From Rhodobacter sp. CZR27 (GTDB lineage Bacteria > Pseudomonadota > Alphaproteobacteria > Rhodobacterales > Rhodobacteraceae), in assembly GCF_002407205.1 (NCBI RefSeq), contig NZ_CP023550.1, positions 129,106 through 193,105 of the forward strand: DNA of 64,000 bases. Reading direction: 5' to 3'. Shown in pieces: positions 9,273-52,075 of this stretch. Every line of letters starts with the position of its first letter. Within the stretch, counting starts at the first letter, position 1. The notes under the pieces are model-generated. The model ran no database searches. It was not told the DNA's origin and worked only from the letters and a program-made list of their open reading frames with translations. Made by a program: the position numbers and the translations under genes.

Positions 9273-9344
9273 ACGGGACGGCCCGGAAGTCCGTGACGCG
9301 ACCCGCCCGGGCGCGGGAGCAGGAGTTTCCCCTTTCCGGCCCGA

Positions 9345-9957: not shown

Positions 9958-10035
9958 GCCTACGAGAAGCCGCCGATCCTCGAGGGGGTGGAGATCGGCA
10001 CCCCCGTCCGGCACATGAACCACACGGGCGGATAG
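9955..10035 (+). other. 26-codon ORF with a PqqA-like N-terminus
   Basis: The ORF begins MAYEKPPILEGVEIGT and ends at TAG. M-A-[YW]-x-K-P-x-I-x-E resembles PqqA and other RiPP precursor leaders with a YxxP motif, but the Tyr that PqqA needs in its core is absent. No clear Shine-Dalgarno and no PQQ or radical-SAM genes are nearby. It starts exactly where torT homology ends, so it may be part of a different, rearranged gene. Confidence 0.2.
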
Positions 10036-10077
10036 GTCTTCCGCCTCGATGACCTCGGGGGGCGGTCACATCATGTG

Positions 10078-10088
10078 TGGGTAGCCCC
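10078..10088 (+). repeat. Left subterminal inverted repeat of the IS
   Basis: TGGGTAGCCCC, a perfect match to the reverse complement of 11416-11426. Confidence 0.8.
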
Positions 10089-10325
10089 GGTTTTAGCGGG
10101 CTGTCGCCTCGGCTAGCATGATACGATCGAATGCGTCCATGTGTCAGGCCTTTCGTCGGAGCGCTTTGCTCCATGGCCGGTATGGGATGCGCGGGTTGTG
10201 GTCAAAACATCAAAACGAGCTCGAAGCTCTCCATGTGACACTGGTTTCCCCAACCCCGATCTGTCCGATCGATTTCATACAAGCTTCAGCTTCTCCCGCA
10301 TTTCGAGGCGGTGCTGCTGACCTCG
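10089..10325 (-). ncRNA. Candidate bridge/seek RNA region of the IS
   Basis: The space between the transposase stop and the inverted repeat has no ORF of its own and is where IS1111-type elements are known to encode the guide RNA that pairs with target and donor DNA. Exact RNA ends and loops were not determined; the call rests on family knowledge and position. Confidence 0.4.
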
Positions 10326-14693: not shown

Positions 14694-14949
14694 GCCGATG
14701 CTTCATATCTCGAGCGCGGTGCTGCGCGTGGTCCCGGGCCGCGAGGACGCGGTAACGCGCGAGGTCGAGGCGATGGGGGCCGAGGTGGCGCTGGCCGGGA
14801 CGGGCCGGCTCGTGGTGCTGATGGAGGCCCCCTCCGGCGGCGCCATCGGCGATCTGCTGACGCGGATGACGCTGATCGAGGGCGTGCATGCGGCCTGCAT
14901 GGTCTACGAGCAGGCCGAACCCCTCCGGACACTGGGAGAAGAAGCATGA
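14686..14949 (+). CDS. napD: NapA maturation chaperone NapD
   Basis: 87 aa of the NapD family ([13 protein letters not shown] at the N-terminus, usually HI.S.VV...P). NapD binds the twin-arginine signal peptide of NapA and holds it until the molybdenum cofactor has been inserted. Length is normal for the family. Its start lies inside the 3' end of napF, and its stop overlaps the napA start (ATGA), which should couple synthesis of the chaperone and its client. Confidence 0.93.
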
Positions 14950-17441
14950 CGCTCACGCGACGCGATCTGATCAAGGCGCAGGCGGCGGCGGCTGCTGCGG
15001 CTGCGGCGGGGCTTGCGCTGCCCGCGCCTGCCCAGCCCGTGACGGGAGGGGCCGAGGCGCTGCGCATCCGCTGGTCGAAGGCGCCCTGCCGCTTCTGCGG
15101 CACCGGCTGCGGGGTGATGGTGGGCACCCGCGACGGGCATGTCGTCGCCACCCATGGCGACACGCAGGCCGAGGTGAACCGCGGCCTGAACTGCGTGAAG
15201 GGCTATTTCCTGTCCAAGATCATGTATGGCGAGGACCGCCTGACCACGCCGCTCCTGCGGATGCGCGACGGGGTCTACCACAAGGACGGCGAGTTCCAGC
15301 CGGTGAGCTGGGACGAGGCCTTCGACATCATGGCCGCGCAGGCCAAGCGCGTGCTGGCCGGGAAGGGCCCGCGGGCGGTCGGCATGTTCGGCTCGGGCCA
15401 GTGGACGATCTGGGAGGGCTATGCCGCCTCGAAGCTGATGCGCGCGGGCTTCCTGTCGAACAACCTCGACCCGAACGCGCGGCACTGCATGGCCTCGGCC
15501 GCGGTGGCCTTCATGCGCACCTTCGGCATGGACGAGCCGATGGGCTGCTATGACGACTTCGAACATGCCGACGCCTTCGTGCTCTGGGGCTCGAACATGG
15601 CCGAGATGCACCCGATCCTGTGGAGCCGGCTGACCGACCGGCGGCTGAGCCACGAACACGTGCGCGTGGCGGTGCTCTCGACCTTCACCCATCGCAGCAT
15701 GGATCTCGCGGACACGCCCATCGTCTTCACCCCGGGCACCGACCTCGCGATCCTGAACTACATCGCGAACCACATCATCCGGACGGGCCGGGTGAACCGC
15801 GACTTCGTGGACCGGCACACGAATTTCGCGCTGGGGGCCACCGACATCGGCTACGGGCTGCGCCCCGAGCATCAGCTCCAGCTGGCGGCGCGGGGCGCGG
15901 CGGATGCGGGTGCCATGACCCCGGCCGATTTCGACGCCTTCGCGGCCTTCGTGTCCGAATACACGCTTGAAAAGGCCGCCGGGATCTCGGGGGTGGAGCC
16001 GGCGCTGCTCGAGGAGCTGGCCGAGCTTTATGCCGATCCGGACCGCAAGGTCATGTCGCTCTGGACCATGGGCTTCAACCAGCATGTGCGCGGCGTCTGG
16101 GCCAACCACATGGTCTACAACCTGCACCTGCTGACCGGGAAGATCGCCGAGCCCGGCAACTCGCCCTTCTCGCTCACGGGGCAGCCCTCGGCCTGCGGCA
16201 CGGCGCGCGAGGTGGGCACCTTCGCCCACCGCCTGCCCGCCGACATGGTGGTGACCAACCCCGAGCATCGCGCCCATGCCGAGGAGATCTGGCGCCTGCC
16301 CCGCGGCCTGCTGCCCGACTGGGTGGGGGCCAGTGCGGTCGAGCAGGACCGCAAGCTGAAGGATGGCGAGATCAACTTCTACTGGGTGCAGGTCAACAAC
16401 AACATGCAGGCCGCGCCCAACATCGACCAGGAGACCTGGCCGGGCTATCGCAACCCCGAGAACTTCGTCGTGGTCTCGGACGCCTATCCCACGGTCACGG
16501 GCCGGGCGGCCGATCTGGTCCTGCCCGCCGCCATGTGGGTCGAGAAGGAGGGCGCCTACGGCAATGCCGAGCGGCGCACGCACTTCTGGCACCAGCTGGT
16601 CGAGGCGCCGGGCGAGGCGCGGTCCGACCTCTGGCAGCTGATGGAATTCTCGAAGCGCTTCACCACCGACGAGGTCTGGCCGGCCGGGATCCTCGACGCG
16701 GCACCCGAATATCGCGGCAAGACCCTGTTCGAGGTGCTGTTCGCCAACGGGACGGTGGACCGCTTCCCCGCGACCGGGGTCGATCCCGACTATGCGAACC
16801 ACGAGGCCGCGCATTTCGGCTTCTACGTCCAGAAGGGGCTGTTCGAGGAATATGCCGCCTTCGGCCGCGGCCATGGCCACGACCTCGCGCCCTTCGACAC
16901 CTATCACGAGGTGCGCGGCCTGCGCTGGCCGGTGGTAGAGGGGCAGGAGACGCTCTGGCGCTACCGCGAGGGGCTCGACCCCTACGTCAAGCCGGGCGAG
17001 GGCGTGCGCTTCTACGGCAAGCCCGATGGCCGGGCGATCATCCTCGCCGTTCCCTACGAGCCGCCCGCCGAAAGCCCCGACGCGGACTACGGCCTCTGGC
17101 TGGTGACGGGCCGGGTGCTGGAACACTGGCACTCCGGCTCGATGACCATGCGGGTGCCGGAACTCTACAAGGCCTTCCCCGGGGCGGTCTGCTTCATGCA
17201 TCCCGAGGATGCGCGCGAACGCGGGCTCAACCGCGGCGCCGAGGTGCGGGTGATCTCGCGCCGCGGCGAGATGCGGACCCGGCTCGAGACCCGCGGCCGC
17301 AACCGGATGCCGCGCGGCGTGGTCTTCGTGCCCTGGTTCGACGCCAGCCAGCTCATCAACAAGGTGACGCTCGACGCCAACGACCCGATCTCCCGCCAAA
17401 CGGATTTCAAGAAATGCGCCGTCAAGATCGAACCCGTCTGA
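14946..17441 (+). CDS. napA: Periplasmic nitrate reductase catalytic subunit NapA
   Basis: 831 aa, normal length for NapA. The twin-arginine signal [10 protein letters not shown] leads an Ala-rich hydrophobic stretch cleaved near PAPAQP. The single 4Fe-4S cluster is bound by Cys48, Cys51, Cys55 and Cys83 (CRFCGTGCG...NCVKG), and the Mo-bis-MGD is expected on Cys181 ([10 protein letters not shown]). The enzyme reduces nitrate to nitrite in the periplasm with electrons from quinol through NapC and NapB. All three modules (domains binding the cluster, the two MGDs and the C-terminal cap) appear intact. napB starts within the last 28 bases. Confidence 0.97.
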
Positions 17442-17884
17442 CCCGCGCCGCCGTGCTGGCGCTGTGGGCCCTGGCTGCCGCGGCCCAGGCGCAGGCGCAG
17501 GACGCGCCGCGCCTGACCGGCGCCGACGAGCCGATGGGAGACGTGCCCGCGCCGCCCGTCGCCGACTGGATCATCAACGACGTGCGGGTGGGGCGGAACT
17601 ATCCCGAGCAGCCGCCGGTCATCCCGCACGGCATCGAGGGCTATCAGCTCTCGGTCACGGCGAACCGCTGCCTTGAATGCCACCGCCGCGAATATTCCGG
17701 ACTGGTCGCGGCGCCGATGATCTCGATCACGCATTTCCAGGACCGCGAGGGCCAGATGCTCGCGGATGTCTCGCCGCGCCGCTACTTCTGCACCGCCTGC
17801 CACGTGCCGCAGTCGAACGCGCGGCCGCTGGTCGAGAACCGCTTCCGCGACATGCTGACCCTGATGCCGGTCGGAGAGGAGTGA
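17414..17884 (+). CDS. napB: Diheme cytochrome c subunit NapB
   Basis: 156 aa. A Sec signal ([20 protein letters not shown], cleavage near AQAQ-DAP) directs it to the periplasm. The two heme c motifs are CLECH and CTACH, and the distal His ligands probably lie in IPHGIEGYQ and [10 protein letters not shown], as in known NapB. It passes electrons from NapC to the NapA iron-sulfur cluster. The start overlaps napA by 28 bases in another frame; the longer upstream frame is only napA antiphase sequence. The stop overlaps the napC start (TGATG). Confidence 0.95.
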
Positions 17885-18579
17885 TGCGGCTGCCCGTTCC
17901 CCGGTTCCTCCGCCGCTTCTGGCAGATCGCGACCCGCCCGGCAGGCTTTCTCAGCGTGGGGTTCCTGACGCTCGGCGGCTTCGTGGGCGGGGTGCTGTTC
18001 TGGGGCGGGTTCAACACGGCGCTCGAGGCCACCAATACCGAGCCCTTCTGCACCTCCTGCCACGAGATGCAGACCAACGTCTTCGAGGAACTGACCCGCA
18101 CGGTGCATTACACCAATCGCTCGGGCGTGCGCGCGGGCTGCCCGGACTGCCATGTGCCGCATGAATGGACCGACAAGATCGCGCGCAAGATGCAGGCCTC
18201 GAAGGAGGTCTGGGGCCACCTGTTCGGCACGATCGACACGCGGCGCAAGTTCCTCGACCACCGCCTGCGGCTGGCCGAGCACGAATGGGCGCGGCTGAAG
18301 GCCAATGACTCGCTCGAATGCCGGAACTGCCATTCCGAGGTGGCGATGGATTTCACCCGCCAGACCGACAGGGCGGGGCAGATCCACACGCAATACCTGA
18401 TCCGGACCGAGGGCTATACCTGCATCGACTGCCACAAGGGCATCGCGCACGAATTGCCCGATATGCGCGGCGTCGATCCGGGCTGGCTCCCCCCGCCGGA
18501 GTTGCGCGATGCCTCGGGCTTCCAGACCGGCGCCCTTCCCGATCCCGCCGCGGTGCGGGACTACGTGCTGCGGAACTGA
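17884..18579 (+). CDS. napC: Tetraheme membrane-anchored quinol dehydrogenase NapC
   Basis: 231 aa of the NapC/NirT family. One N-terminal membrane anchor (about residues 18-42, [21 protein letters not shown]), then four CxxCH heme sites: CTSCH, CPDCH, CRNCH and CIDCH. It oxidises quinol in the inner membrane and reduces NapB. Last gene of the napKEFDABC operon; a short hairpin follows. No napGH genes are present, consistent with a NapC-dependent route. Confidence 0.96.
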
Positions 18580-25846: not shown

Positions 25847-27910
25847 TTGAAGGACATGCTCGATCCCCCCGCCGATCCGCCCGTTTCCGATGCGACCCTG
25901 ACACTCGAAGCGAAGGACCGGCGGGACCTGCCGCCGGGCGCCGCAGGCGGCGGATCGCCGGCGGCCGCAGGAGGGCCCGCGGACGGGGCCGCCGACAGGA
26001 CCGCCGACAGGGCCGCGGAGGGGGTCGCCGCAGGCGCGACCCGGATGCGGGACACCACGGCCGCCGGCCCCGGCTCGGTCACCATCGAGGCCCGGGCGGG
26101 CGAGCCGATCCCGAAGCGCCCGGCCCCGCCTCCGGGACAGGGCGGGGGTGGGGGCGGCCAGGGACCGGGCTTCCACCGCCGCCTCGGCCCCGAGAACTTC
26201 GGCGAGAGCCTGCGCCAGGGCACGGCCGCGGTGCGGCGCAACCTCGGGCTCGTCATGGCGCTGACCTGCGCCACCAACCTGCTGATCCTCGCCATCCCGA
26301 TCTACCTGTTCCAGATCTCGGACCGGGTGCTGACCAGCCGCTCGCTCGACACGCTGGTGATGCTGACCGTGGTGATCGTGGGGGCGGTGCTGCTGCAGGC
26401 GGTGCTGGATGCCGTGCGCCGCTTCATGCTGATGCGCACTGCGGTCGAGGTGGCGGTGCAACTCGGCGCGCCGGTGCTGAGTTCGGCCGCCCATGCCTCG
26501 CTTTCGGGATCAAGCCGGGAATACCAGACGCTGGGTGACCTGCAGCAGCTGCGCAGCTTCCTCGTCTCGGGCACGCTGATCTCGTTCCTCGACGTGCCCT
26601 TCGCGCCGCTCTTCATCCTCGCGATCTTCCTCGTCCATCCGCACCTGGGCAGCATCGTCGTGGTGACGGCGCTGCTGCTGCTGGTGATCGCGCTGGTGAA
26701 CCAGAAGATGACCGAGAAACCCTTCGCCGAGGCCAACCTCGCCCAGTCCAGGGCCAACCTGCATCTCGAGTCGATGGCGCGGAACAGCCAGATCATCAAC
26801 GCCATGGCGATGATCCCCGAGGCGGTGGCGATCTGGGGCCGCGACGTGGCGGCCTCGCTGACCGCGCAGGTGCGCGCGCAGGACCGCAACATCGTCAGCG
26901 CCGCCCTCTCGCGCGCGGTGCGGCTGCTCACGCAGATCGGCCTGCTGGGCTGGGGCGCCTATCTCGCCATCGAGGGCGAGATCACCGGCGGCATGGTGAT
27001 CGCGGCCTCGATCATCGCGGGCCGGGCGCTCGCCCCGATCGAAGGCGCGATCGAGGGCTGGAACGCGGTGATCCTGACGCGGGCCGCCCACCAGCGGATC
27101 ACCCGGCTGCTGACCGGCTCGCGGCTGCAGTTCGAGCGGCTGCGCCTGCCCCGCCCCGAAGGCCGGCTTGATGTCGAGCGGCTGCTCTACGTGCCGCCGG
27201 GCACCAGGCAGGTGGTGCTGAACGGCATCAGCTTCTCGCTCAATCCCGGCGACACGCTGGCGGTGATCGGCAATTCCGGCGCGGGCAAGACCACGCTGGG
27301 CAAGATGCTGGTGGGCTCGATCCTGCCCACCTCGGGCTCGGTCCGGCTGGACCTGATGGACCTGCGCAACTGGGACCCGCGCCAGCTGGGCGAGAACCTG
27401 GGCTACCTGCCGCAGGACGTGCAGCTCTTTCCCGGCACGATCAAGGAGAACATCGCCCGGATGCGGGCCGATGCGACCGACGAGGAGATCCACCGCGCGG
27501 CCGTGCTGGCCGACGTGCACGAGATGATCGCGCTCTTGCCGCAGGGCTACGAGACCCTCGTGGCGGCCGATGGCGCGCCGCTTTCGGGCGGGCAGAAGCA
27601 GCGCGTGGCGCTGGCGCGGGCCTTCTTCGGCAACCCGCGCCTCGTGGTGCTGGACGAGCCGAACTCGAACCTCGACACGGCCGGCGACAAGGCGCTGGCC
27701 CGCGCCATCGCCCAGGCGCGCGAGAACGGCATCACCGTGGTGGTCATCACCCAGAAGCCCGCGCTCCTTCAGGTGGTGGACAAGATCATGCTGCTGGCCA
27801 ATGGCACCGTCTCGCTCTTCGGCGCGCGCGAGAAGGTGCTGGCCCAGCTCAATGCGCAGGCGGCGCCCGCCCGCGTCGCTCGGCCCGAGGGAGGCCCCGC
27901 CCATGGCTGA
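25847..27910 (+). CDS. Type I secretion permease/ATPase (PrtD-type)
   Basis: 687 aa, longer than typical PrtD (about 570-600) because of a Gly/Ala/Pro-rich, probably disordered 110-residue N-terminal extension. The membrane domain follows (NLGLVMALTCATNLLILAIPIYLFQISDRVLTSRSLDTL, a family signature). The ABC domain has Walker A GNSGAGKTT, signature LSGGQKQR and Walker B RLVVLDEPNSNLD. It energises export of substrates with C-terminal signals across both membranes. A TTG at 25847 is favoured because GGAGAC lies eight bases before it; the ATG at 25856 is an alternative. It overlaps the HlyD gene by 8 bases. Confidence 0.9.
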   Translation: MKDMLDPPADPPVSDATLTLEAKDRRDLPPGAAGGGSPAAAGGPADGAADRTADRAAEGVAAGATRMRDTTAAGPGSVTIEARAGEPIPKRPAPPPGQGGGGGGQGPGFHRRLGPENFGESLRQGTAAVRRNLGLVMALTCATNLLILAIPIYLFQISDRVLTSRSLDTLVMLTVVIVGAVLLQAVLDAVRRFMLMRTAVEVAVQLGAPVLSSAAHASLSGSSREYQTLGDLQQLRSFLVSGTLISFLDVPFAPLFILAIFLVHPHLGSIVVVTALLLLVIALVNQKMTEKPFAEANLAQSRANLHLESMARNSQIINAMAMIPEAVAIWGRDVAASLTAQVRAQDRNIVSAALSRAVRLLTQIGLLGWGAYLAIEGEITGGMVIAASIIAGRALAPIEGAIEGWNAVILTRAAHQRITRLLTGSRLQFERLRLPRPEGRLDVERLLYVPPGTRQVVLNGISFSLNPGDTLAVIGNSGAGKTTLGKMLVGSILPTSGSVRLDLMDLRNWDPRQLGENLGYLPQDVQLFPGTIKENIARMRADATDEEIHRAAVLADVHEMIALLPQGYETLVAADGAPLSGGQKQRVALARAFFGNPRLVVLDEPNSNLDTAGDKALARAIAQARENGITVVVITQKPALLQVVDKIMLLANGTVSLFGAREKVLAQLNAQAAPARVARPEGGPAHG

Positions 27911-29231
27911 GACATCCTATCCGGAATGGTATGCGGGCGTGCCGCGCTCGGTCACGCGCCACGCGGTCTTCGGCCTCAGCCTGATGGCGCTGTCCTTCGG
28001 CGGCTTCGGCCTCTGGGCCTTCAGGGCCCCCCTCGCCGCCGCCGTGATCTCGCAGGGCAGCTTCGTCGCCACCGGCCAGAACAAGATCGTCCAGCATCTG
28101 GAAGGCGGCATCATCCGCGAGATCCTGGTCGAGGAGGGCGACCGCATCGAGGCGGGCCAGGTGATCCTGCGCCTCGACGAGACGCTGGCGCAGGCCACGC
28201 GGCGCGAGCTGGTGCTGCGCCGCGCCCGGCTCGAGGCGACCGAGGCGCGGCTGCTCGCGCTTCATCACGGCGACGAGCAGCTGGCGCTGCCCCAGCATCT
28301 GCTGGCCGCCCAGGGCGATCCCGAGATCGCCGCCATCATCGAGGGCCAGCGGCTCGCCTTCGGCGCCACCCGCTCGCAGCTGGCCAATGACGTGGCGCTG
28401 GTCGAGCGCAACATCGAGGCGCTGGAGATGCGCGGCCGCGGCTACGAGGCCGAGCTTCGGGCGATGCGGGGCCAGGCGGAGCTGCTGGAGGAGGAGCTCT
28501 CCTCGAAGACCACCCTGCTCGAGACCGGGCTGATCCGGCAGACCGAGATCTCCGCCCTGCGCCGGGCGCTGCTCGAGGCCCAGGGCCAGATGGGCCGGAT
28601 CGAGGCCGAGATCGCCGAGAGCCTCAAGATGAGCGCCAAGTTCCAGACCCAGATCGACAAGACCCACGACGAATACCGCCGCGCGGCGCTGGCCGAGCTG
28701 CAGGCGATCCAGGGCGAGCTGGAAAGCGTGCGCGAGGAGGCGCGCAAGGCCGAGAACGTGCTGACGCGCACCGAGGTGCCGGCGCCGGTGGCCGGCACGG
28801 TGGTCCGGCTGCACTACCACACGCCGGGCGGCGTCATCGAGACCGGCAAGCCGATCGCCGAGATCCTGCCCGCGGATGCGCCGCTGATCGTCGAGGTGCT
28901 GGTGCCGCGCAACGACATCGACAGCGTGAAGGCGGACCAGCCCGCGACGGTGCGGCTGGTGGCGCTGAACCAGCGCACGACGCCGGTGCTGAACGGCCGC
29001 GTGGCCTATGTCTCGGCCGACAGCGTCGCCGACGCGTCGGACGGCGTGCCGCGCGAGGTCTATGTGGCGCGGGTGAGCCTCGAGCCCGAGGAACTGGCCC
29101 GTGTCCCCGGCTTCACGCCGACGCCCGGGATGCCGGCCGAGATCATGATCCAGACCGCCGAGCGCACCTTCGCCCAGTATCTGGCCCGCCCCGTCCTCGA
29201 CAGCATGGCCCGCGCCTTCCGCGAGCAGTAG
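27903..29231 (+). CDS. HlyD-family type I secretion periplasmic adaptor
   Basis: 442 aa. One N-terminal membrane segment (AVFGLSLMALSFGGFGLWAF), then biotinyl-lipoyl-like halves around a long coiled-coil (about residues 95-290, rich in Glu/Leu/Arg heptads with ALRRALLEAQGQMGRIEAEI). The GSFVATGQNKIVQHLEGGII and RTEVPAPVAGTVV motifs are typical of HlyD/PrtE adaptors. It bridges the ABC transporter to an outer-membrane TolC-like channel, which is not encoded in this window and must come from elsewhere. Its start overlaps the ABC gene (ATGGCTGA). Confidence 0.93.
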   Translation: MAETSYPEWYAGVPRSVTRHAVFGLSLMALSFGGFGLWAFRAPLAAAVISQGSFVATGQNKIVQHLEGGIIREILVEEGDRIEAGQVILRLDETLAQATRRELVLRRARLEATEARLLALHHGDEQLALPQHLLAAQGDPEIAAIIEGQRLAFGATRSQLANDVALVERNIEALEMRGRGYEAELRAMRGQAELLEEELSSKTTLLETGLIRQTEISALRRALLEAQGQMGRIEAEIAESLKMSAKFQTQIDKTHDEYRRAALAELQAIQGELESVREEARKAENVLTRTEVPAPVAGTVVRLHYHTPGGVIETGKPIAEILPADAPLIVEVLVPRNDIDSVKADQPATVRLVALNQRTTPVLNGRVAYVSADSVADASDGVPREVYVARVSLEPEELARVPGFTPTPGMPAEIMIQTAERTFAQYLARPVLDSMARAFREQ

Positions 29232-29894: not shown

Positions 29895-32792
29895 ATGACT
29901 TTCCTTTATAACCTCAACAATTTCGAGTTCACGGCCTTCAGCGCGGGCCAGCTCCTCTCGCAGGGCACGATGGGCGCTTCGGTGAGCGTCGGCGACAGCT
30001 TCACCATGCCTGCCGCGGCCGACACCGCGCTGAAGGTTGCCGATGACGACCGCTTCCTGTCGGGCGACAGCTGCCGGGACAACAATGCCGACGATGGCTG
30101 CGGGCAGCAGGCGTCGATCGTCACCGACGGCACCGCGGCGGGCAACGGCGGCCAGGTCTATGCCGAAAGCTACTTCTGGGTGCAGGATCAGTGCGGCAAG
30201 AAGTACATGCTGGTCGAGATCGAGCAGGAAGGCAGCGCCGGCACCTACTACACCTTCAACAGCTCCTGCGGCCTGCCTGCCGCGGGCGCGAAGCTGACCG
30301 TGGTCAGCCAGTGCAACGTCACCTCGAACTGGATCGACTACTGCAACCTCGGCGCCGGGAGCCTCGAGAAGCTCGGAACCGTCTCGGGCAGCGTCTTCGG
30401 CGATACCAACTGCGACGGGATCAACGGCACGCTCGGCACGATCCCCGGCTGCGACTACCTGATCGAGGCCGAGGCGATGTGCAAGACCTCGAGCCTCGTC
30501 ACCATCTGCGACTCCGGCGCCTCGGGCGGCAAGTTCGTCCGCCTCGCCTGCCCCGGCGGCAAGGGCGAGCTGACCACGAGCTTCAACGGCAAGAGCGGCA
30601 CCTATGACCTGACGCTCCGCCTGCAGGACGAGAACGACGGCCAGAGCACGATCCGGCTGGTGATCGACGGCCGCGAGGTCGAGGCGATCCGGCTGAGCCG
30701 CGACAGCGACGGCGGCGGCTCGGACTGCGGCCCGTTCTCGACCTATGTCATCAGGGACGTGCAGATCGACTGCGGCGACCAGATCAGGCTCGCCGTGGCC
30801 GGAAGCTGCTCGGAATACGTGCGCATCGACAGCCTGCGGCTGGAAGGGCATGACACGACGGTGCGCACGCCCGAGCCGCCGAGGGCGGGGGTGACGGTCA
30901 AGCTGGTCGATCTGTCCGGCCGGGTCGTGGCCACCACCACGACGGATGCGAACGGCGCCTACAGCTTCGAGAACGTGAGGGCCGGCCAGTACAAGGTGGT
31001 GGGCGTCGCGCCCGACGGCACGGAATTCACCCTGAGGGATGCCGGCACCGACGACAGTCTCGATTCCGACGTGGATGCGGGCGGCGCGTCGGACGTGTTG
31101 ACCGTGAGGGGCGGCGAGACGGTGGACGTGGATCTCGGGCTCTGCACCTTCCGGCCGGCTTCGATCTCGGGCCGCTATTTCGTGGACACCGACAACAGCG
31201 GCACCGATCAGGCCGAGCCGGGCGTGGGCGGCGTGACGGTGCAGCTCATGGGCGCGGACGGCCGGGTCGTGGCCACCACCACGACGGCGGCCGACGGCAG
31301 CTATTCCTTCGGCGGCCTCAAGGCGGGCGACTACACCGTGGCCTTCGGCGACGATCCGGCGGGCCGGGTCTTCGTGGGCAGGGACGTAGGCGGCGATGAC
31401 ACCGTCGACTCGGACGTGAACCCCGCGACGGGCCGGACCGACCGGATCACGCTTGGCCGGGGCGAGGCGAAGACCGACGTCGATGCCGGCGTGCGCGATC
31501 CCCGGACGGCCTCGATCGGCGACACGGTCTTCCTCGACGCTGACGGCGACGGCGTGCAGGACGCGACCGAGGCCGGCGCGGATGGCGTCGAGGTGACGCT
31601 GCTGAACGGGAAGGGCGCGGTGGTGGCCAGCACCACCACGGCGAACGGCGGCCAGTATTCCTTCACCGGTCTCGCCGCGGGCAGCTATTCGGTGGTCTTC
31701 GGCACGCTGGCGGGCCATGCCTTCACCACCAGGGGTGCCGAGGCCGCGGATGCGGTGAACGGCGACAGCGACGCGAACCTTCTCGGCCTGACCGACACGT
31801 TCGTGCTGTCCATCGGCGAGGTCGAGACCGACATCGATGCGGGCCTCGTGCGGCTGAACACGGCGCCGGTCGCGCTGAACGACACCGGTCGCGGCTGCGC
31901 GAACGAGACGATCACGCTCGACGTGCTGGCGAACGACAGCGATGACGATGGCGACACGCTGGTCATCGCCACGGTGGACGGCCACACGATCCGCGAAGGC
32001 GAGACGATCGCCACCGCCAGGGGGACGCTGGTCACGCTGTCGGACGGCAAGCTCTCGTTCGACGGCACGGCGGCCCATGCCGATCTGAACGTCGGCGAGA
32101 GGGGCTACGAGACGGTCCGCTACACCGTCTCGGACGGCAGGGGCGGCACTGCCGCGGCCGAGGTCGAGCTGTCCTTCTGCGGGGTGGCGGACACGCTGGA
32201 AGAGCTGTGCGAAAGCCTGCCGGACAGGGTGGAGTACCAGTTGGTCAGCGGATACCAGAACGGGACGTCCGACGCCTACAGCATGCGGATCGCCGGAACC
32301 GGCGACGCCCGGTTCGATGGCCAGGTGATCACGACCGCCTATTGCGCCAGCGCCTATGAGCTGGCCTCCATGGGGACCAGCTTCTCCAATGCGCCGGTGT
32401 TCACCGGCAATCTCTACTGCGCCACCGATGCGGCGGCGGTGGCCCGTGTTCTGGCCGGGCAGACCGGAAGCAACGGGCTTGCGGCGGCGGAGAACATCGA
32501 CCTGATAACCTGGCTGCTGAACCAGGACTTCACCGGCACCAGGTTCAACGATGCCGAGGTGCAGGCCGCGATCTGGAATCTGACCGACGGCCTCAACTCC
32601 ATCGGCTCGAACTTCGGCCAGCTTGCCGATGTCCACGAACTGGTCGACCTGGCCATCCGCAACGGAGAGGGCTTCGTGCCCGGCACCGATGACGTGGTGG
32701 CGCTGGTGGTCGACCCGGACCCGGTGACGGCGGACAACGCGCAGCCCTTCATCCTGGGCGTTTCCTTCGGCGCGCTCGACTGCCTCTGCTGA
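29895..32792 (+). CDS. Large SdrD-type surface protein with a carbohydrate-binding-like domain
   Basis: 965 aa with no N-terminal signal peptide. The N-terminal 190 residues are Cys-rich and unassigned. Residues about 195-320 resemble a Ca-dependent xylan-binding module (YLIEAEAM...GGKFVRLAC...GTYDLTLRLQDENDGQSTIRLVIDG). Three SdrD B-like repeats follow (TVKLVDLSGRVVATTTTDANGAYSFENVRAGQY and related), each ending near a D-x-D-x-D pattern, then a cadherin-like/VCBS-type segment (DVLANDSDDDGDTLVIATVDG). The C-terminal 200 residues form a separate domain ending DCLC. Likely exported by type I secretion and involved in adhesion or glycan binding. Next to the exosortase E system; whether they work together is inference. 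Confidence 0.8.
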   Translation: MTFLYNLNNFEFTAFSAGQLLSQGTMGASVSVGDSFTMPAAADTALKVADDDRFLSGDSCRDNNADDGCGQQASIVTDGTAAGNGGQVYAESYFWVQDQCGKKYMLVEIEQEGSAGTYYTFNSSCGLPAAGAKLTVVSQCNVTSNWIDYCNLGAGSLEKLGTVSGSVFGDTNCDGINGTLGTIPGCDYLIEAEAMCKTSSLVTICDSGASGGKFVRLACPGGKGELTTSFNGKSGTYDLTLRLQDENDGQSTIRLVIDGREVEAIRLSRDSDGGGSDCGPFSTYVIRDVQIDCGDQIRLAVAGSCSEYVRIDSLRLEGHDTTVRTPEPPRAGVTVKLVDLSGRVVATTTTDANGAYSFENVRAGQYKVVGVAPDGTEFTLRDAGTDDSLDSDVDAGGASDVLTVRGGETVDVDLGLCTFRPASISGRYFVDTDNSGTDQAEPGVGGVTVQLMGADGRVVATTTTAADGSYSFGGLKAGDYTVAFGDDPAGRVFVGRDVGGDDTVDSDVNPATGRTDRITLGRGEAKTDVDAGVRDPRTASIGDTVFLDADGDGVQDATEAGADGVEVTLLNGKGAVVASTTTANGGQYSFTGLAAGSYSVVFGTLAGHAFTTRGAEAADAVNGDSDANLLGLTDTFVLSIGEVETDIDAGLVRLNTAPVALNDTGRGCANETITLDVLANDSDDDGDTLVIATVDGHTIREGETIATARGTLVTLSDGKLSFDGTAAHADLNVGERGYETVRYTVSDGRGGTAAAEVELSFCGVADTLEELCESLPDRVEYQLVSGYQNGTSDAYSMRIAGTGDARFDGQVITTAYCASAYELASMGTSFSNAPVFTGNLYCATDAAAVARVLAGQTGSNGLAAAENIDLITWLLNQDFTGTRFNDAEVQAAIWNLTDGLNSIGSNFGQLADVHELVDLAIRNGEGFVPGTDDVVALVVDPDPVTADNAQPFILGVSFGALDCLC

Positions 32793-32832: not shown

Positions 32833-32870
32833 CACCGCCCGGCGAAAGCTGCGTCTTTCGCCGGGCGGTG
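32833..32870 (+). terminator. Perfect 16-bp-stem hairpin
   Basis: CACCGCCCGGCGAAAG (32833-32848) pairs completely with CTTTCGCCGGGCGGTG (32855-32870) over a 6-base loop, 40 bases after the SdrD-type gene. A strong terminator candidate without a T-tract. Confidence 0.65.
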
Positions 32871-32962: not shown

Positions 32963-33157
32963 ATGAAGAAGCTGACGGCTCTTGCCGCGACCGCGATTTC
33001 CTTCGTATCGGCCACGCAGGCCCTCGCGACGGACGGCTGCATCGCGCTCGGCACCTGCTCGGTCCCCGAGATCAGCGCGCTCGACGGGGCTGCCGCCCTC
33101 GCCGTGGTGAGCGCGCTCGTCCTGCTCGCCTGGGAGCGTCGCCGCCGCGCCGCCTGA
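32963..33157 (+). CDS. Short VPEID-CTERM sorting-signal protein
   Basis: 64 aa. A Sec signal peptide (residues 1-22, cleavage near ALA-TDG) leaves a mature part of only about 40 residues: a two-Cys loop (Cys26, Cys32), the sorting motif SVPEIS (residues 33-38), one membrane helix (41-57) and a basic ERRRR tail. This is the tripartite layout of exosortase substrates, here of the VPEID-CTERM type processed by exosortase E. AAGGAAG precedes the ATG at 32963. The exosortase gene follows 73 bases downstream. After cleavage the released peptide would be tiny; its role is unknown. It may be lipidated, glycosylated or attached to the polysaccharide. Confidence 0.85.
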   Translation: MKKLTALAATAISFVSATQALATDGCIALGTCSVPEISALDGAAALAVVSALVLLAWERRRRAA

Positions 33158-33175
33158 CCCGGCGATCCGGCCCCG

Positions 33176-33202
33176 GCCCGCTTCGCTTCCTGCGGGGCGG
33201 GC
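33176..33202 (+). terminator. Attenuator-like hairpin between the VPEID protein and exosortase genes
   Basis: GCCCGC (33176-33181) pairs with GCGGGC (33197-33202), followed by TTTCCTTCCCC. It may reduce read-through so that the substrate is made in excess over the exosortase. Confidence 0.4.
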
Positions 33203-33230
33203 TTTCCTTCCCCTTCCGACGACAGCGACG

Positions 33231-34841
33231 ATGACCACCGAAAGCCCCCCTCTCCGCCCGGCCGTCGCGCCGCTTCTGGCGCTCGTCGGCCTGCTGGCGG
33301 CCGAGCTGGCGGTGATCGGCGTCACCTACAAGCATCTGATCCGGTTCACCTGCCTCGAGAACTGGCCGGCCGCGGTCTGCGGCGGGGCGAGCACCTTCAT
33401 GGTCAGCGTCTATGCGATGGCCGCGGCCCTCGCGCTGGTGGCGCTGCTGATCCCCGAGGCGGTGCGGCAGCTGGCGGCCGAGGCCGGGCTGCGGCGGGCG
33501 GGCCTTCTGCCGAACCTTGCCGGCTTCGCCGCCATGATGGCGCCGCTGCCCCTGCTGGCCGAGGGCGCCGGCACCGCGGTCCTGCCGGTCGTGCTGGCCT
33601 GCTGGGGCATGGGCATCCTGCTCGGCGCGACGGGTGCCCTGCTGATGGTGGCGCCCCTTGCGCGCTGGCGGGTGTTCCTGGCCGCGCAGGGCGGGCGGTT
33701 CGCGCTTGCCGCGGTGGCGGGGCTGCTGGCGCCGATCCTTGCGATGCAGGTCCGGCCGCTGTGGCGGCTCGAGACCATGGCCGACCTCACCTTCTCGGCG
33801 GTGGCGGGGCTGATCCGCCTTCTAGGCTACGAGGTCGCGGCCGACCCGGTGGCGAAGACCATCGGCGCCGCCGGCTTCTCGATCAGCGTGGCCCCGGTCT
33901 GCTCGGGGATCGAGGGGATGGGCCTCGTCGCGGTCTTCGTCACGCTCTTTCTGGGCCTCTTCCGCCACGAGCTGCGCTTTCCCGCGGCCCTGCTGCTCTA
34001 TCCGATCGGGATCGTGGCAAGCGCGGCGCTCAACATCCTGCGGATCACGCTGCTGCTCGTCATCGGGCTGAACGGCCATCCCGGGCTGGCGGTGGGCGGG
34101 TTCCACAGCCATGCCGGCTGGCTGAGCTTCACGCTCCTGTCGCTCGGCCTGATCCTTGCCGCCCGCAGCCTTGCCGTCTTCGCCCGGTTGCCGCGGCCGG
34201 CGGCACAGGCCCCGCGCCTGCCGCCCTTCCTGGCCGATCCGATGGTGGCGGGCATCCTGCCATTTGCCGTCTTCATGGCCTCGGCATTGCTGGCCTCGAC
34301 CTTCTCCGCCTCGCCCGAGACGGTCTATCCCCTGCGGGTGCTGGCGATGGCGGGGGTGCTCGCGCTGTTCCTGCCCCATCTGCGCAGCCTCGGCTGGCGG
34401 GTGGATCCGCTGGCCCTGGGGCTGGGGGTGGGCATCGGCCTCCTCTGGGCCCTGACCGGTCCGGCGCCCGGGCCGGGCAGCCTGCCGGCCCAGGGGACGC
34501 TGGCCGGCGCGGGCCTCGCCCTCTGGATCCTCTCGCGGGTCATCGGCACCGCGCTGCTCGTCCCGGTGATCGAGGAGCTGTTCTTCCGCGGCTACCTGCT
34601 CGACCGGCTTGCCCCGCCGGGAAGCCGCCGGCCCTGGCGTGTCCTGCTGGCGGTGGCCGTCAGTTCCGCAGCCTTTGCGGTCCTTCATGACCGCTGGCTG
34701 GCGGCGGGACTGGCGGGCGTGGCCTTCGCGCTTCTGGCGCTGCGCTCGCGCAACCTGACCGATGCCATCCTGGCCCATGCCGCGGCCAATGCGGTGATCG
34801 CGGGGGTGGCACTGGCAACCGGCAACTGGGGCCTCATCTGA
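33231..34841 (+). CDS. xrtE: Exosortase E fused to a CPBP-type intramembrane protease
   Basis: 536 aa polytopic membrane protein of the exosortase E/protease (VPEID-CTERM) type. The N-terminal two-thirds is the exosortase: catalytic Cys224 in APVCSGIEGMGL, Arg271 in LNILRITLL, and His292/His294 in GGFHSHAGWLSF. The C-terminal third is an ABI/CPBP (CAAX-type) protease-like domain with Glu448-Glu449 and Arg453 in IEELFFRGYL, and His486 in AVLHDRW. The first half should recognise VPEID-CTERM proteins in the inner membrane, cut or transfer them at the sorting motif, and the second may process the remaining signal. Its only obvious substrate is the preceding 64-aa protein. Start ATG at 33231; no strong ribosome site. 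Confidence 0.92.
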   Translation: MTTESPPLRPAVAPLLALVGLLAAELAVIGVTYKHLIRFTCLENWPAAVCGGASTFMVSVYAMAAALALVALLIPEAVRQLAAEAGLRRAGLLPNLAGFAAMMAPLPLLAEGAGTAVLPVVLACWGMGILLGATGALLMVAPLARWRVFLAAQGGRFALAAVAGLLAPILAMQVRPLWRLETMADLTFSAVAGLIRLLGYEVAADPVAKTIGAAGFSISVAPVCSGIEGMGLVAVFVTLFLGLFRHELRFPAALLLYPIGIVASAALNILRITLLLVIGLNGHPGLAVGGFHSHAGWLSFTLLSLGLILAARSLAVFARLPRPAAQAPRLPPFLADPMVAGILPFAVFMASALLASTFSASPETVYPLRVLAMAGVLALFLPHLRSLGWRVDPLALGLGVGIGLLWALTGPAPGPGSLPAQGTLAGAGLALWILSRVIGTALLVPVIEELFFRGYLLDRLAPPGSRRPWRVLLAVAVSSAAFAVLHDRWLAAGLAGVAFALLALRSRNLTDAILAHAAANAVIAGVALATGNWGLI

Positions 34842-46546: not shown

Positions 46547-49500
46547 ATGACGCGACCGGCACCGGTCTCCCATGCGCAGACGGCGCTCTGGTTCGGCGCC
46601 GGGGACGCGGCGGGAAGCTCCGAGCACAACCTGCTGTGGCTGCTCGCCTTCCGGGGGCCGCTCGATGTCGGGCGGCTGGCCGCGGCGCTGGCGGCCGTCG
46701 TCGCCCGGCACGAGACGCTGCGCTCGGTCTTCCTGCGGCGGGGGGAACGCATCGAACGGCAGGTGCGGCCCGCCCCGCCCGCGATCCGGCCCGAGCGGCT
46801 CGCCCTCGCGCCGGGGGAGACGGCCCGGAGCCTCGCCACGGCCTTCGGCCTCAGGCCCTATGACCTGGCCGGGGAGCCGCCGGTCCGCTTCGGGCTGCTC
46901 GAGCGGGCGCCGGACGACCATGTGCTGTTCTGCGGCTTCCACCACCTCGTCACCGACGGCACCTCGTGGCCGGTGTTCGTGGCCGATCTCCTCGCCGCGC
47001 TGGAGGGCCGGCCCCTGCCCCCGCTGCCGGCCCGCTATTCCGACCATTGCCGCTGGCAGCAGGCCACCGAGGCCTCCGGCGCATGGGAGGAGGCCCGCCG
47101 CCACTGGCGGGGGCTTCTCGCCGGCCTGCCCGAGCCCTGGCAGTTGCAGCTGGCCGGAGAGCCCGCCCCCGGTCTCGTGCCCGACCACGAGGGCGCCCAT
47201 CGGGTGATCCCGCTTTCGCCCGGGCTGTCGGCGCGCCTGCGCGAGCGCGCCGCCGCATGGCGGACCAGCCCCTTCCGCATCGCCTTCGCGGCCTGGATCG
47301 CGCTTCTCCACCTCGAGACGCGGCGCGAGGTCCTGCCCGTTGCCACCACCTGGGTCGGGCGGTCGCGGCACTGGGCGGGAGTGGTGGGCTTCTTCGTCAA
47401 CACCGGGATCGTGACGGCCCGGCTGGACCCCGGGACCCCGTTCCGCGCGCTGATGGACCAGACCGCGGCGCTGATCGACGCGGGCGTCGCGCATGAGGAA
47501 TTCCCCTACCGGCTCGCGCTGCGCGAGGCCCCGCCCGGCCCGCACCGGCACGGGGTGACGCCGCTCTCCTTCACCCGCATGCCCACGAGCCGCCCCTGGC
47601 GCTGCAACGGCATGGAGGTGACCGAGGAGCGGCTGTTCCTGCCGCGCGCCGACCGCGACCTCGCGGCCTATTTCCAGGACGAGCGCGGAACCTTCCGGCT
47701 GCATCTGGTCCACCGCACCGCGGCCCTCGGGGCCGAGGCCGTGGCACGCCTGGCCGAGCGCTTCCCGATCCTGCTGGCGGATGCGCTCGAACGGCCGGAC
47801 TGCCCGGTGGATGCGCTGGAGATCCTGCCCCCCGCCGACCGCCGCAGGATCCTGGGCGACTGGAATGCCACCGATTGCGCCTTTCCCGCGAAGCCCCTGC
47901 ACCGGCTGGTCGAGGCGCAGGCCGCCCGGACCCCGGGGCGCATCGCGCTGGTCTCGCCCGAGGGCGCGCTGACCTACCGCGACCTCGACGGCCGGGCCAA
48001 TGCGCTGGCCCGCCTGTTGCAGGCGCGGGGCGCGGGGCGGGGCTCGATCGTGCCGCTGCTGATGACCTCCTCGGCCGCGATGGTGATCGCGGAACTTGCG
48101 GTGCTGAAGACGGGGGCGGCCTTCGCGCCGCTCGACCCGCAGTGGCCGGCGAACCGGCTGGCGCGGCTCCTCGACCGGCTCGGCTCGGGGCTCGTGCTCG
48201 TGGCGCAGGAGGGCGACCGCGACCTCGCCCTTGCAGGGGCAGGCGGGGCCCGGCCCGGAACCGCGCGCGAGGTTCTGGCGCTGGACGGCCTGGCCCTCGA
48301 CCCGGAGGCGGGCCCCCTCGACGTGCCGGTCTCGCTCGGGGATCCGATCTACTGCATCTTCACCTCGGGCTCGACCGGCGAGCCGAAGGGGGCGATCAAC
48401 GCCCATGCCGGCGTGGTCAACCGGCTGTTCTCGATGACCCGGGTCTTCGGATCGCCCGAGGCCGACCGGGTGCTCGCCACCGCCCCCGCCACCGCGGACA
48501 CCCATGTCTGGCAGTATTTCTGGCCGCTGGCCTTCGGCGGGCGCACGGTGGTGATGCCGCGCGACCGGCTGGTGCTGCCCGAGCGGATCGTCGGGACGAT
48601 CGGAACCCACGGCATCACCTTCGCCGATTTCATCCCCTCGATCTTCCGCACCCTGGTCGCGCATCTGAAGGCCCACGAGGCGGCGCGCCCCGCGCTGGCC
48701 GGGCTCGGCCGCATCATCCTGGGCGGCGAGGCGATGGAGACCCGCTCGGTGCGCGAGTTCCGCGCCCTCTTCCCCGGGATCGCGATCTGCAACACCTACG
48801 GGCCCACCGAGGCCTCGATCGCCGCACTCCATCACCAGCTGGGCGAGACGATCGCCGACCCGGTGCCGATCGGCCGGCCCTTCCCCAACATCCGCGCGGT
48901 GATCCTCGACCGGCACGGGCGGCCGGTGCCGGTGGGGATGGTGGGCGAGCTCTGCCTCGGCGGGGTCTGCGTGGGGCTCGGCTATCTCGGCGATCCCGAG
49001 ACCACGGCGCGGAAGTTCATCCCCAACCCCTTCCCGGAACTCGGCTGCGACCGGCTCTACCGCACCGGGGACCTCGCGCGCTTCCGCGCCGACGGGGTGA
49101 TCGACTTCCTCGGCCGGGCCGACGACCAGATCAAGCTGCGCGGCGCCCGGATCGAGCCGGGCGAGGTCGAGGCCGCCCTGCTGCGCCACCCGGCCGTGGC
49201 CGAGGCGGCCGTGGGCCTTTCGGCGGAACGGGACCGGCTGGTGGCCTGGCTGGTGGCCGATCCCGCCGCCCCGCCGCCCGAGGCCGCGGAGCTTGCCGAC
49301 GCGCTGCGGGCGGAACTCCCGCCGCACATGGTGCCCTCTGGCTTCACCCTGCTGCCGGCCCTGCCGCTCGCCCCCAGCGGCAAGCTCGACCGCCGGGCGC
49401 TGGCCGGGGCGGCCGGCGTGCCGCTTCCCGTCCTGCGGCGGTCCGAGGCGCCGCGCGACGAGACCGAGCGCCGGATCGAACGGGTCTGGCGGAAGGTGCT

Positions 49501-50434
49501 GGGGCAGGAGCGCATCGGCATCCACGACAACTTCTTCTCGGACCTGGGCGGGGATTCGCTCAAGGCGCTGACCTGCCTCCTCGAGCTCGAGGCGGCGGGC
49601 GTACCGGCGGGGATCCGCGATCTCTACATGGCGCAGGACATCGCCTCGCTGGCGCGCCGGCTCGGCTCGCGCCCGGCGGGACGCGCCGCCGATGGACCGG
49701 CCGGCGCCGCCGCCGGGCCAGCCCCCGATGCCGCCCGGCTCGAGGCGGCGCTCCTCGAGCGGCAGCGGCCCTATCTCTCGTCCTGGAGCGGCGAGCGGGT
49801 CTCGCCCGCGGGGCTCCTCTTCATGCGGAACGCGGGCGGCGGCCAGCCCCCGCTGTTCTGGTGCTTCCAGGGCTTCCAGGAGTTCCGCCAGCTGGCCGAG
49901 CGCTTCGCCACCCGGTTCGCGCCCGACCGGCCGCTGGTCGGCATGCGCTCGGGCCATCTGATCATGGACTACGACGACCCCTCGCTCGACGCGCTGACCT
50001 CGGCCTATGCGCGCGAGGTGCAGGCGCTCTGGCCCGAGGGTCCGGTGTATCTCGGCGGGAACTGCCAGGGGGGGCGGGTCGCCCACCGGCTGGCGCGGCA
50101 GCTGCGGCGGCAGGGGCGCGAGACCGCGCTGCTGATCCTGATGGAGGAGTCGCTCTTCGAGCCGCATGCGGGCCGTCTCGCGCTGGTCTTCGGGCGCGAC
50201 AGCAAGCTCAATCCCTGGCGCGACGGCGGCGATCCGGGCCCGCTTCTGGCCGAGCGCTATCCGGGGCTTGCCTCGGTCGACATCGTGCCGGGCGCGCATG
50301 GCCAGTTCTTCGAGGATCGCCATGTCGATGACCTGGCACGGGCGCTTGCGACCCGCCTGGACGAGGCCTGCGCCGCCGGCCGGGACCCGCGGGCAAGCCC
50401 TGCCGACCGGCGGGAGGCCGACCTTCCCGCCTGA
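46547..50434 (+). CDS. Single-module nonribosomal peptide synthetase (C-A-T-TE)
   Basis: 1295 aa, cytoplasmic. The condensation domain (about residues 1-420) keeps HHLVTDG (His132-Gly138). The adenylation domain (about 430-940) shows FTSGSTGEPKG (from 605), NTYGPTEAS, YRTGD, DDQIKLRGARIEPGEVE and SGKLDRR, so it should activate an amino acid; the conserved Asp (ADTHVW) fits an alpha-amino group, but the substrate cannot be read reliably. The carrier domain has GGDSLKAL with Ser1004 for the phosphopantetheine arm. The thioesterase-like domain (about 1060-1290) has GNCQGG, placing Cys1173 where Ser is usual, and a C-terminal GAHGQFF His. No MbtH or PPTase gene is near. It leads an exopolysaccharide gene run, so its product may decorate the polysaccharide. 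GGAGAGG lies seven bases before the ATG. Confidence 0.92.
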   Translation: MTRPAPVSHAQTALWFGAGDAAGSSEHNLLWLLAFRGPLDVGRLAAALAAVVARHETLRSVFLRRGERIERQVRPAPPAIRPERLALAPGETARSLATAFGLRPYDLAGEPPVRFGLLERAPDDHVLFCGFHHLVTDGTSWPVFVADLLAALEGRPLPPLPARYSDHCRWQQATEASGAWEEARRHWRGLLAGLPEPWQLQLAGEPAPGLVPDHEGAHRVIPLSPGLSARLRERAAAWRTSPFRIAFAAWIALLHLETRREVLPVATTWVGRSRHWAGVVGFFVNTGIVTARLDPGTPFRALMDQTAALIDAGVAHEEFPYRLALREAPPGPHRHGVTPLSFTRMPTSRPWRCNGMEVTEERLFLPRADRDLAAYFQDERGTFRLHLVHRTAALGAEAVARLAERFPILLADALERPDCPVDALEILPPADRRRILGDWNATDCAFPAKPLHRLVEAQAARTPGRIALVSPEGALTYRDLDGRANALARLLQARGAGRGSIVPLLMTSSAAMVIAELAVLKTGAAFAPLDPQWPANRLARLLDRLGSGLVLVAQEGDRDLALAGAGGARPGTAREVLALDGLALDPEAGPLDVPVSLGDPIYCIFTSGSTGEPKGAINAHAGVVNRLFSMTRVFGSPEADRVLATAPATADTHVWQYFWPLAFGGRTVVMPRDRLVLPERIVGTIGTHGITFADFIPSIFRTLVAHLKAHEAARPALAGLGRIILGGEAMETRSVREFRALFPGIAICNTYGPTEASIAALHHQLGETIADPVPIGRPFPNIRAVILDRHGRPVPVGMVGELCLGGVCVGLGYLGDPETTARKFIPNPFPELGCDRLYRTGDLARFRADGVIDFLGRADDQIKLRGARIEPGEVEAALLRHPAVAEAAVGLSAERDRLVAWLVADPAAPPPEAAELADALRAELPPHMVPSGFTLLPALPLAPSGKLDRRALAGAAGVPLPVLRRSEAPRDETERRIERVWRKVLGQERIGIHDNFFSDLGGDSLKALTCLLELEAAGVPAGIRDLYMAQDIASLARRLGSRPAGRAADGPAGAAAGPAPDAARLEAALLERQRPYLSSWSGERVSPAGLLFMRNAGGGQPPLFWCFQGFQEFRQLAERFATRFAPDRPLVGMRSGHLIMDYDDPSLDALTSAYAREVQALWPEGPVYLGGNCQGGRVAHRLARQLRRQGRETALLILMEESLFEPHAGRLALVFGRDSKLNPWRDGGDPGPLLAERYPGLASVDIVPGAHGQFFEDRHVDDLARALATRLDEACAAGRDPRASPADRREADLPA

Positions 50435-50788: not shown

Positions 50789-52075
50789 ATGCGGGCACCT
50801 GATCGCGTCGTCATCCTGAACGACATCTCGACGGTGCGCGGCGGGGCGAGCTACCTGGTCACCACGCTCGCCCGGTCGCTTCGCGCGCGCGGGCTGGCCG
50901 TCACCTTCATCGCCGGCGACGACGGCAACCCGGACCTGGCAGGGGCGGGAATCGAGGTCGTGCCGCTGGGGGGCCGGGCGCTGATCCACTCTCCCGGCGC
51001 GTCGATGCTGCGCGGCCTCTACAATGGCGCGGTCCGCCGGCAGGTCGCGGACTGGATCGCGCGGAACGACACGCCCGGCACGGTCTATCACCTGCACAAC
51101 TGGTCCAACATCCTGACCCCGGCGGTGCTGGACGCGCTGGCCCCGGTCGCCGATCGCTGCGCGATCCATGCGCATGACTTCTTCCTCGCCTGCCCGAACG
51201 GGGCCTTCCTCGACTATCCGCGCGCCGCGGTCTGCCAGCGGCGGCCGCTGTCCCCGGCCTGCCTCGCCACGCAGTGCGACAAGCGCAGCTACAGCCACAA
51301 GCTCTGGCGCTCGGCGCGCCAGGCGCTGCTGTGGAACCGGCTCGCGCCGTTCCTGCTCCGGGCACGCTTCGTCCTGATCAACGAGGCGATGCGGCCCTGG
51401 ATCGAGCGCGCGATCCGGCCTGCCCATGCGCTTGCGATCGGCAATCCGGTCGCGCCCTTCGCCGATGCGGTCCCCGCGCCCGAGCGGAACCGCCGCATCG
51501 TGCAGATCGGCCAGGTCCAGCGGCTGAAGGGGGTGTTCGAACTGGCCGAGGCCGGGCGCCGGCTGGGCCTTGCCATCGATTTCATCGGCACCGGCGACAG
51601 CCTCGAGGAGTTGCGGCGGCTCTACCCCGAGCATGCCTGGCACGGCTGGATGTCGAGGGAGGCGATCGGGCGCTTCCTGCACGGCGCAAGGGCCGCCGTG
51701 GTGGCGACCCAGAGCCCCGAGCCCTTCTGCCTCGCGGCCTTCGAATGCGTGGCGACCGGCCTGCCGCTCGTCGTCTCGGATTCGATCCTGTCCGCCCGCC
51801 AGCTGGCCGCGGCGGGGGCGGCCATGACCTTCCGCGCCGGGGACGCCGGGGCGCTGGCCGCGACGCTCGATCGGATCCTGCGCGACGATGCCCTCGTCGC
51901 CCGCCTGGCCCGTGCCGCGCGCGAGAAGGGGCCGGGGCTGGCCCCCGGCCTTTCCGACTGGGTCGCGGCCCATGACCGGCTCTATCGCGGGCTTCTCGCC
52001 GAAAGTCCCCGGCCCGCCGGCCGGTGGCGGGCGACGGGCAGGCCCCTCCCCCTGCCCGAGGAGGCGCTGGAATGA
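50789..52075 (+). CDS. GT4-family glycosyltransferase
   Basis: 428 aa. GT-B fold: the N-terminal Rossmann half starts VVILNDISTVRGGASYLVTTLARSL (Gly-rich loop), and the C-terminal nucleotide-sugar half has RRIVQIGQVQRLKGVFELAEA and the conserved acid region SPEPFCLAAFECVATGLPLVVSD (E-x7-E of GT4). It should add a sugar to a lipid-linked oligosaccharide on the cytoplasmic side. GAAGGGG seven bases before the ATG supports the start. Its stop overlaps the start of the Tat beta-helix gene (ATGA). Confidence 0.9.
   Translation: MRAPDRVVILNDISTVRGGASYLVTTLARSLRARGLAVTFIAGDDGNPDLAGAGIEVVPLGGRALIHSPGASMLRGLYNGAVRRQVADWIARNDTPGTVYHLHNWSNILTPAVLDALAPVADRCAIHAHDFFLACPNGAFLDYPRAAVCQRRPLSPACLATQCDKRSYSHKLWRSARQALLWNRLAPFLLRARFVLINEAMRPWIERAIRPAHALAIGNPVAPFADAVPAPERNRRIVQIGQVQRLKGVFELAEAGRRLGLAIDFIGTGDSLEELRRLYPEHAWHGWMSREAIGRFLHGARAAVVATQSPEPFCLAAFECVATGLPLVVSDSILSARQLAAAGAAMTFRAGDAGALAATLDRILRDDALVARLARAAREKGPGLAPGLSDWVAAHDRLYRGLLAESPRPAGRWRATGRPLPLPEEALE

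Follow-up and report, generated by a model that had tools for sequence, protein, structure and literature searches.

We report that the window analysed here (64,000 nucleotides of Rhodobacter sp. CZR27, forming the end of a 193-kb contig, positions 129106-193105 of 193105, in a genome of 4.4 Mb and 4 contigs) encodes an exosortase E (XrtE)/VPEID-CTERM system of the known dedicated kind. Our preferred reading, to which we give a probability of about 0.5, is that this system belongs to a clade in which the target gene is bound to the gene for a large thioester-domain adhesin and in which the processed peptide aids the display of that adhesin. The type of pair is already known, and "exosortase E/protease, VPEID-CTERM system" is an already named family; the clade in which a thioester-like adhesin adjoins the pair is a variant for which the literature searched, a set without the founding paper and the bulk of the subscription literature, yielded no report. 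The one article found to name both the thioester domain and exosortase (PMC12617251) mentions the latter nowhere but in its references.

The enzyme gene (33231-34841, + strand) encodes an exosortase E (Cys/Arg/His) fused to a CPBP/Rce1-type glutamic protease, and its product scores 415.4 bits against TIGR04162 (curated cut-off 150), 33.8 bits against PF09721 and 63.4 bits against PF02517. Among 102 aligned XrtE rows, in which some genomes are present twice, the exosortase residues Cys224, Arg271 and His292 are kept in 101, 102 and 102 rows, and the CPBP residues E448, E449, R453, H486 and H516 in 100, 100, 100, 99 and 100 rows, respectively. The statement in an earlier note on this DNA that both active sites, including the protease EExxxR and His, are intact is thus correct, and the residues are conserved. 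The genome has one XrtE. The exosortase E system was reportedly described as dedicated, i.e. single-target, by Haft, Payne and Selengut in 2012, and we know of no explanation for the retention of an exosortase that serves a single tiny peptide.

A Shine-Dalgarno-like stretch, AAGGAAGTG, precedes the gene for the 64-amino-acid VPEI-CTERM target (32963-33157, +). The predicted anatomy consists of a signal peptide of 22 residues (32963-33028, +; cut by a crude rule of our own, not SignalP), an 11-residue spacer, TDGCIALGTCS (33029-33061, +), the motif VPEIS (33062-33076, +), a hydrophobic helix and a basic RRRR tail, so that the parts expected of a target (motif, membrane helix, basic end) are all present. 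The short distance from signal peptide to motif noted earlier, about 12 residues, holds (about 11-12, and 11 with the crude cut). Against TIGR04161 the target scores 29.7 bits (E 4.8e-7), just below the curated cut-off of 33, which is reached in 28 of the 43 XrtE genomes; VPEIS targets straddle this cut-off, with those of G215 (38.4) and G098 (34.9) above it and those of the window's own genome, G094 and G347 below. An identical protein (P0001) carries the precomputed annotation PF27847.1, known to us by accession rather than description, and two homologues bear the name VPEID-CTERM (NCBI or UniRef). When the genome was searched for further VPEID-CTERM proteins, TIGR04161 matched four times at E ≤10; the window target alone has E <0.1 and is the one match at E ≤0.01, the others reaching only 10-13 bits (E 0.7-4.7). 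One target and one XrtE in the genome bear out the dedicated pair that had been proposed. The window thus resembles the exosortase E/VPEID-CTERM system (TIGR04162/TIGR04161) in its exosortase-CPBP fusion with a short target, and differs in having VPEIS rather than VPEID, a target slightly below the TIGR04161 cut-off that lies upstream and co-directional, and an adjoining thioester-like adhesin.

Comparison of 69 XrtE loci (68 from genome contigs, L042-L109, and the window) shows a target gene within 800 bp of XrtE in 55, and the 56 such targets are all 39-107 amino acids long (median 67). Tiny targets are therefore the rule of the XrtE family, and the small size that the earlier note had regarded as exceptional is not unusual. 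Nor is the two-Cys peptide a conserved feature: at least two Cys are present in 12 of the 56 targets, i.e. in 9 of the 22 that are upstream and co-directional and in 3 of the 34 that are downstream and convergent, these being the two arrangements observed. No conserved Lys or Cys was seen in the spacers when target anatomies were compared. Linkage between target and XrtE is dispensable, as shown by G062, in which the VPEID target (C1:2761523-2761609; L152) is 2.5 Mb from its XrtE (G062:C1:212525-214087; L153) on the same contig. At E ≤0.01, TIGR04161 matches are present in 40 of the 43 XrtE genomes (38 with one, one with two and one with four); the three without a match are G168, G011 and G021, two of which have VPEV and APEI variants adjoining XrtE (L007, L006). 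Locus L072 has three similar mini-targets (APEVS/VPEIS; 6713-7243, +, and 9149-9316, -), and G031 similarly gives four TIGR04161 matches.

The crude signal-peptide rule overlooked clear signal peptides in two loci, L046 and L056, and apparently cut too early in L050, L051 and L053; because of these misses its counts of targets with "no signal peptide" were discarded and inspection of start codons and frames was used instead. By this inspection, the targets of L059, L065, L068, L076 (11626-11790, -, as an example of such a VPEID-CTERM target), L077, L079, L081, L086, L094 and L096 have no signal peptide, as is also the case for L025 and two frames in L004. The open frame starts 1 to about 22 codons ahead of the chosen start in these targets, many of which follow a clear Shine-Dalgarno, and the layout is mostly a Trp/Gly-rich stretch of ~20-27 residues, then VPE[IM]D, helix and basic tail. 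Such targets bear on the substrate recognition requirements of the exosortase.

The gene upstream of the peptide gene (29895-32792, +) encodes a 965-amino-acid adhesin with Pfam matches to SdrD_B (235.8 bits in three stretches) and Big_9 (52.5 bits). Its order is N-terminal domain, CBM6/35/36-like module, SdrD_B repeats, Big_9, thioester-like domain and DCLC tail, where a CBM6/35/36-like carbohydrate-binding fold is predicted for residues 185-320 (30447-30854, +) and the thioester-like domain is predicted at the C-terminus (32181-32789, +), with a putative thioester Cys at 32343-32345 and Gln at 32742-32744 (+). Comparing the latter domain with the PDB by sequence gave chance matches only, and a fold search was required; the predicted fold is that of a thioester domain (TED), and [YF]C and Q188 are present in 17 of 17 adhesin rows. 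Since PF08341 scores 15.4 bits, below the Pfam gathering score of 22, we name the domain TED-like and do not assign it to PF08341. Taken as predictions, these data suggest a thioester domain at the adhesin C-terminus and a carbohydrate-binding module near the N-terminus. With the Gram-positive TED (PF08341) adhesins the window domain shares the predicted fold, [YF]C, a QxAIW helix motif and the C-terminal Gln, the Cys-Gln spacing being 133 compared with 129 (Cys138-Gln267) in CpTIE according to the part available of PMC4450167, the source of the thioester motif definitions. It differs in its alphaproteobacterial host, in being C-terminal and not N-terminal, in its score below the Pfam cut-off and in that no LPXTG was seen in the adhesin. 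Its place beside XrtE ties a covalent-adhesion domain studied in Gram-positives to a Gram-negative sorting enzyme.

The adhesins have Asp-Cys-x-Cys at or near their ends (D in 16, the first C in 17 and the second C in 16 of 17 rows; 32778-32789 in the window), which is possibly a secretion signal. A disulfide between this tail and the peptide Cys pair was considered and rejected, since Cys-less peptides adjoin tailed adhesins in L046, L051, L057, L070 and L085, and a peptide Lys as thioester acceptor was rejected as no Lys is conserved. Among open frames of >350 amino acids in 206 loci no convincing fused adhesin-VPEID protein was found; the sole pattern match, a 372-amino-acid frame in L059, was rejected since by eye it has a polar end stretch and no membrane helix. 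Between the adhesin and peptide genes lies a 16-bp perfect hairpin (32833-32870, +) with no T-run after it (fold z -3.1 for 143 nt; equalled by 1 of 200 shuffles), which may set the relative expression of the two genes. The corresponding stretch in five relatives (L053 and L054 excluded) has fold z values from -0.85 to -5.2, and with this spread the hairpin is not established as common to the relatives.

It has been proposed that conserved neighbours in dedicated systems may disclose missing components (PMC3237569, in the part available), and the association of adhesin, peptide and XrtE is among the evidence for our preferred reading. Thioester-like domains are present in 14 of 42 genomes with XrtE and in 6 of 352 without (394 same-family genomes; Fisher p 7e-11, which is overstated because the genomes are related; up to 3 XrtE, 8 thioester-like domain and 3 XrtD candidates per genome were scored, with misses possible). 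All 14 genomes with both have a VPEI peptide beside the adhesin, and XrtE adjoins the two in 13, G173 being split by contig ends. The gene order adhesin - peptide - XrtE is conserved. Comparing gene order across exosortase E genomes, as had been suggested, shows the order of adhesin and peptide to be fixed: in 18 of 18 loci the peptide gene follows the thioester gene in the same orientation after 77-170 bp. The pair is also intact when XrtE maps to a different contig (C. ovatus L154, R. kholense L200), displaced by 5.6 kb (L063) or 9.3 kb (L050), or inverted (L061).

In a tree of 67 XrtE rows, a single clade of 26 rows (support 95/92) holds all 18 thioester loci, and the thioester label changes 7 times compared with 16.1 when shuffled, at least four of the changes, not one, being forced by starred branches. 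In four of the eight other clade members the adhesin lies outside the locus or at another site in the genome, always with an adjoining peptide (contig ends leave adjacency undecided for L055), and in four the adhesin was not found genome-wide, L060 among these keeping the peptide beside XrtE. No match to the thioester-like adhesin was found in 28 of the 42 XrtE genomes, and the adhesin can therefore not be a general XrtE partner. Conversely, in five of the six domain-bearing genomes without XrtE a VPEI peptide was not seen within some 1.5 kb of the adhesin; the exception, the 99%-complete G161, has a VPEIS peptide (L188 8720-8929, -) and the adhesin (9074-11065, -) without an exosortase, no PF09721 match being found in G161 or in G415. 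In the thioester clade, the peptide is linked to the adhesin no less closely than to the enzyme.

Directly upstream of the adhesin gene are genes for a type I secretion permease/ATPase (25847-27910, +; TIGR01842 696.5 bits, cut-off 510, scanned from 25928) and an HlyD-type periplasmic adaptor (27897-29231, +; TIGR01843 372.7 bits, cut-off 209), the starts of both being uncertain, and the neighbours of the pair described earlier, an adhesin of SdrD type and genes for type I secretion, are accordingly present in the window. As a general context for the pair, type I secretion does not hold up, since such genes adjoin the adhesin only in the window and, by eye, in L061, i.e. in 2 of the 17 loci, a few of them short, to which a crude motif screen was applied. 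The window adhesin is similar to type I secreted surface adhesins with respect to the PrtD/HlyD genes directly upstream, the lack of a signal peptide by eye and the C-terminal position of its presumed ligand-binding domain; unlike the RTX type it has no HemolysinCabind match at E 0.01, and it is not classed there. An RTX protein with an M10 serralysin C-terminal domain is encoded at 4827-6407 of the window and could be an additional type I cargo.

According to our preferred reading, Sec would export the peptide precursor, XrtE would cut at VPEI-S and hand the short peptide to an acceptor beyond the inner membrane, and the fused CPBP protease would remove the residual helix. The adhesin would be exported by type I secretion and retained at the surface with the help of the processed peptide, or of an envelope or matrix site marked by it, whereupon the adhesin thioester could bond covalently with amine-bearing ligands. 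An adhesin of this kind, thioester-like and with a module predicted to bind glycans, supplies a testable task for a dedicated system. A more specific version, which we consider improbable, is that of a sorting signal in trans: XrtE would fix the product of a separate 52-71-amino-acid gene to the envelope or matrix, and this would capture the adhesin, possibly via the adhesin's own thioester, given that an adhesin leaving by type I secretion cannot bear a Sec-routed CTERM tail. If true, this would be a new Gram-negative way of anchoring a covalent adhesin.

The XrtE pair and the adhesin might instead be unrelated surface functions whose genes share plasmid and matrix islands without any partnership. 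XrtE matches 11 plasmid records, on all of which the enzyme is annotated xrtE, and plasmid-island genes can co-travel without joint function. On P. pantotrophus pPAN2 a short hypothetical gene precedes XrtE and no adhesin is annotated nearby. The XrtE genomes that lack the adhesin, together with 6 of 20 adhesin genomes that lack XrtE, also fit mere co-residence. However, the fixed order and spacing in all 18 loci and the persistence of the adhesin-peptide pair through five rearrangements argue against it, and we regard it as somewhat unlikely. We judge it unlikely, too, that the system exists to make the processed peptide as such, for use as a matrix or signalling peptide, with the adhesin incidental. 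The uniformly tiny targets and the Trp-rich (9.9% W, crude cut), often Gly-rich, pre-motif parts of the convergent class, in whose loci, save the inverted L061, no adhesin of this kind was found, speak for such a product, but the part that would be released is highly variable and down to five residues in L070 (GNFND; crude cut), while the motif and the helix and basic tail after it are similar throughout.

Attachment of the peptide to a glycan from the downstream GtrA operon, as the earlier note suggested, appears very improbable. Exosortases have been linked to polysaccharide loci (PMC1569441, in the part available), and polysaccharide genes are present at 50.8-63.2 kb of the window; polysaccharide markers above 200 bits were detected in 7 of 26 thioester-clade loci and 0 of 43 others (5 of the 43 have weaker matches; matches to the seed 'AutoKin' were excluded), a comparison that is biased because the seeds were drawn from such loci. 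The GtrA operon itself has 80%-identical counterparts on three Cereibacter plasmids, the matching stretch beginning after XrtE; these plasmids have no XrtE match, and the annotation of one has no XrtE within 8 kb. This weakens the glycan argument, as does the absence of the operon from the neighbours common to at least five XrtE loci.

A second exosortase, XrtD (G000:C3:41732-43195; L194 8727-10340, -; 616 bits), is encoded 119 kb off on the same 193-kb contig, together with two VPLPA-CTERM targets over the cut-off (C3:51357 and C3:52871) and a PrsT-like TPR protein. The XrtD/VPLPA-CTERM system thus shares the contig with XrtE, but differs in that XrtD is fused to an EpsI domain, with no CPBP protease domain listed, is near the PrsT-like protein and has more than one target. 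XrtD is over its cut-off in 92 of the 394 genomes, i.e. by hand tally in 12 of 20 with the thioester-like domain vs 80 of 374 without (p 3e-4), and in 10 of 42 with XrtE vs 82 of 352 others (p 1); the adhesin is therefore tied to XrtD, while XrtE per se is not. Either XrtE or XrtD is present in 18 of the 20 genomes with the thioester-like domain vs 106 of the 374 without (hand tally). Two plasmids have the adhesin-peptide-XrtE triad amid polysaccharide genes: on that of Alloyangia pacifica XrtD is near, and on that of Limimaricola variabilis the surroundings include genes for polysaccharide export, PilZ and EAL proteins, the two genes 5' of xrtE being annotated as hypothetical.

Elsewhere in the window, a single-module NRPS-like protein (46547-50434; condensation, AMP-binding, carrier and thioesterase) is encoded beside glycosyltransferase and flippase genes (50789-52075 and 61126-63186). 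A molybdopterin oxidoreductase followed by a NapC/NirT cytochrome, resembling a periplasmic nitrate reductase, is located at 14946-18579, and an IS110-type transposase at 10326-11360 (-).
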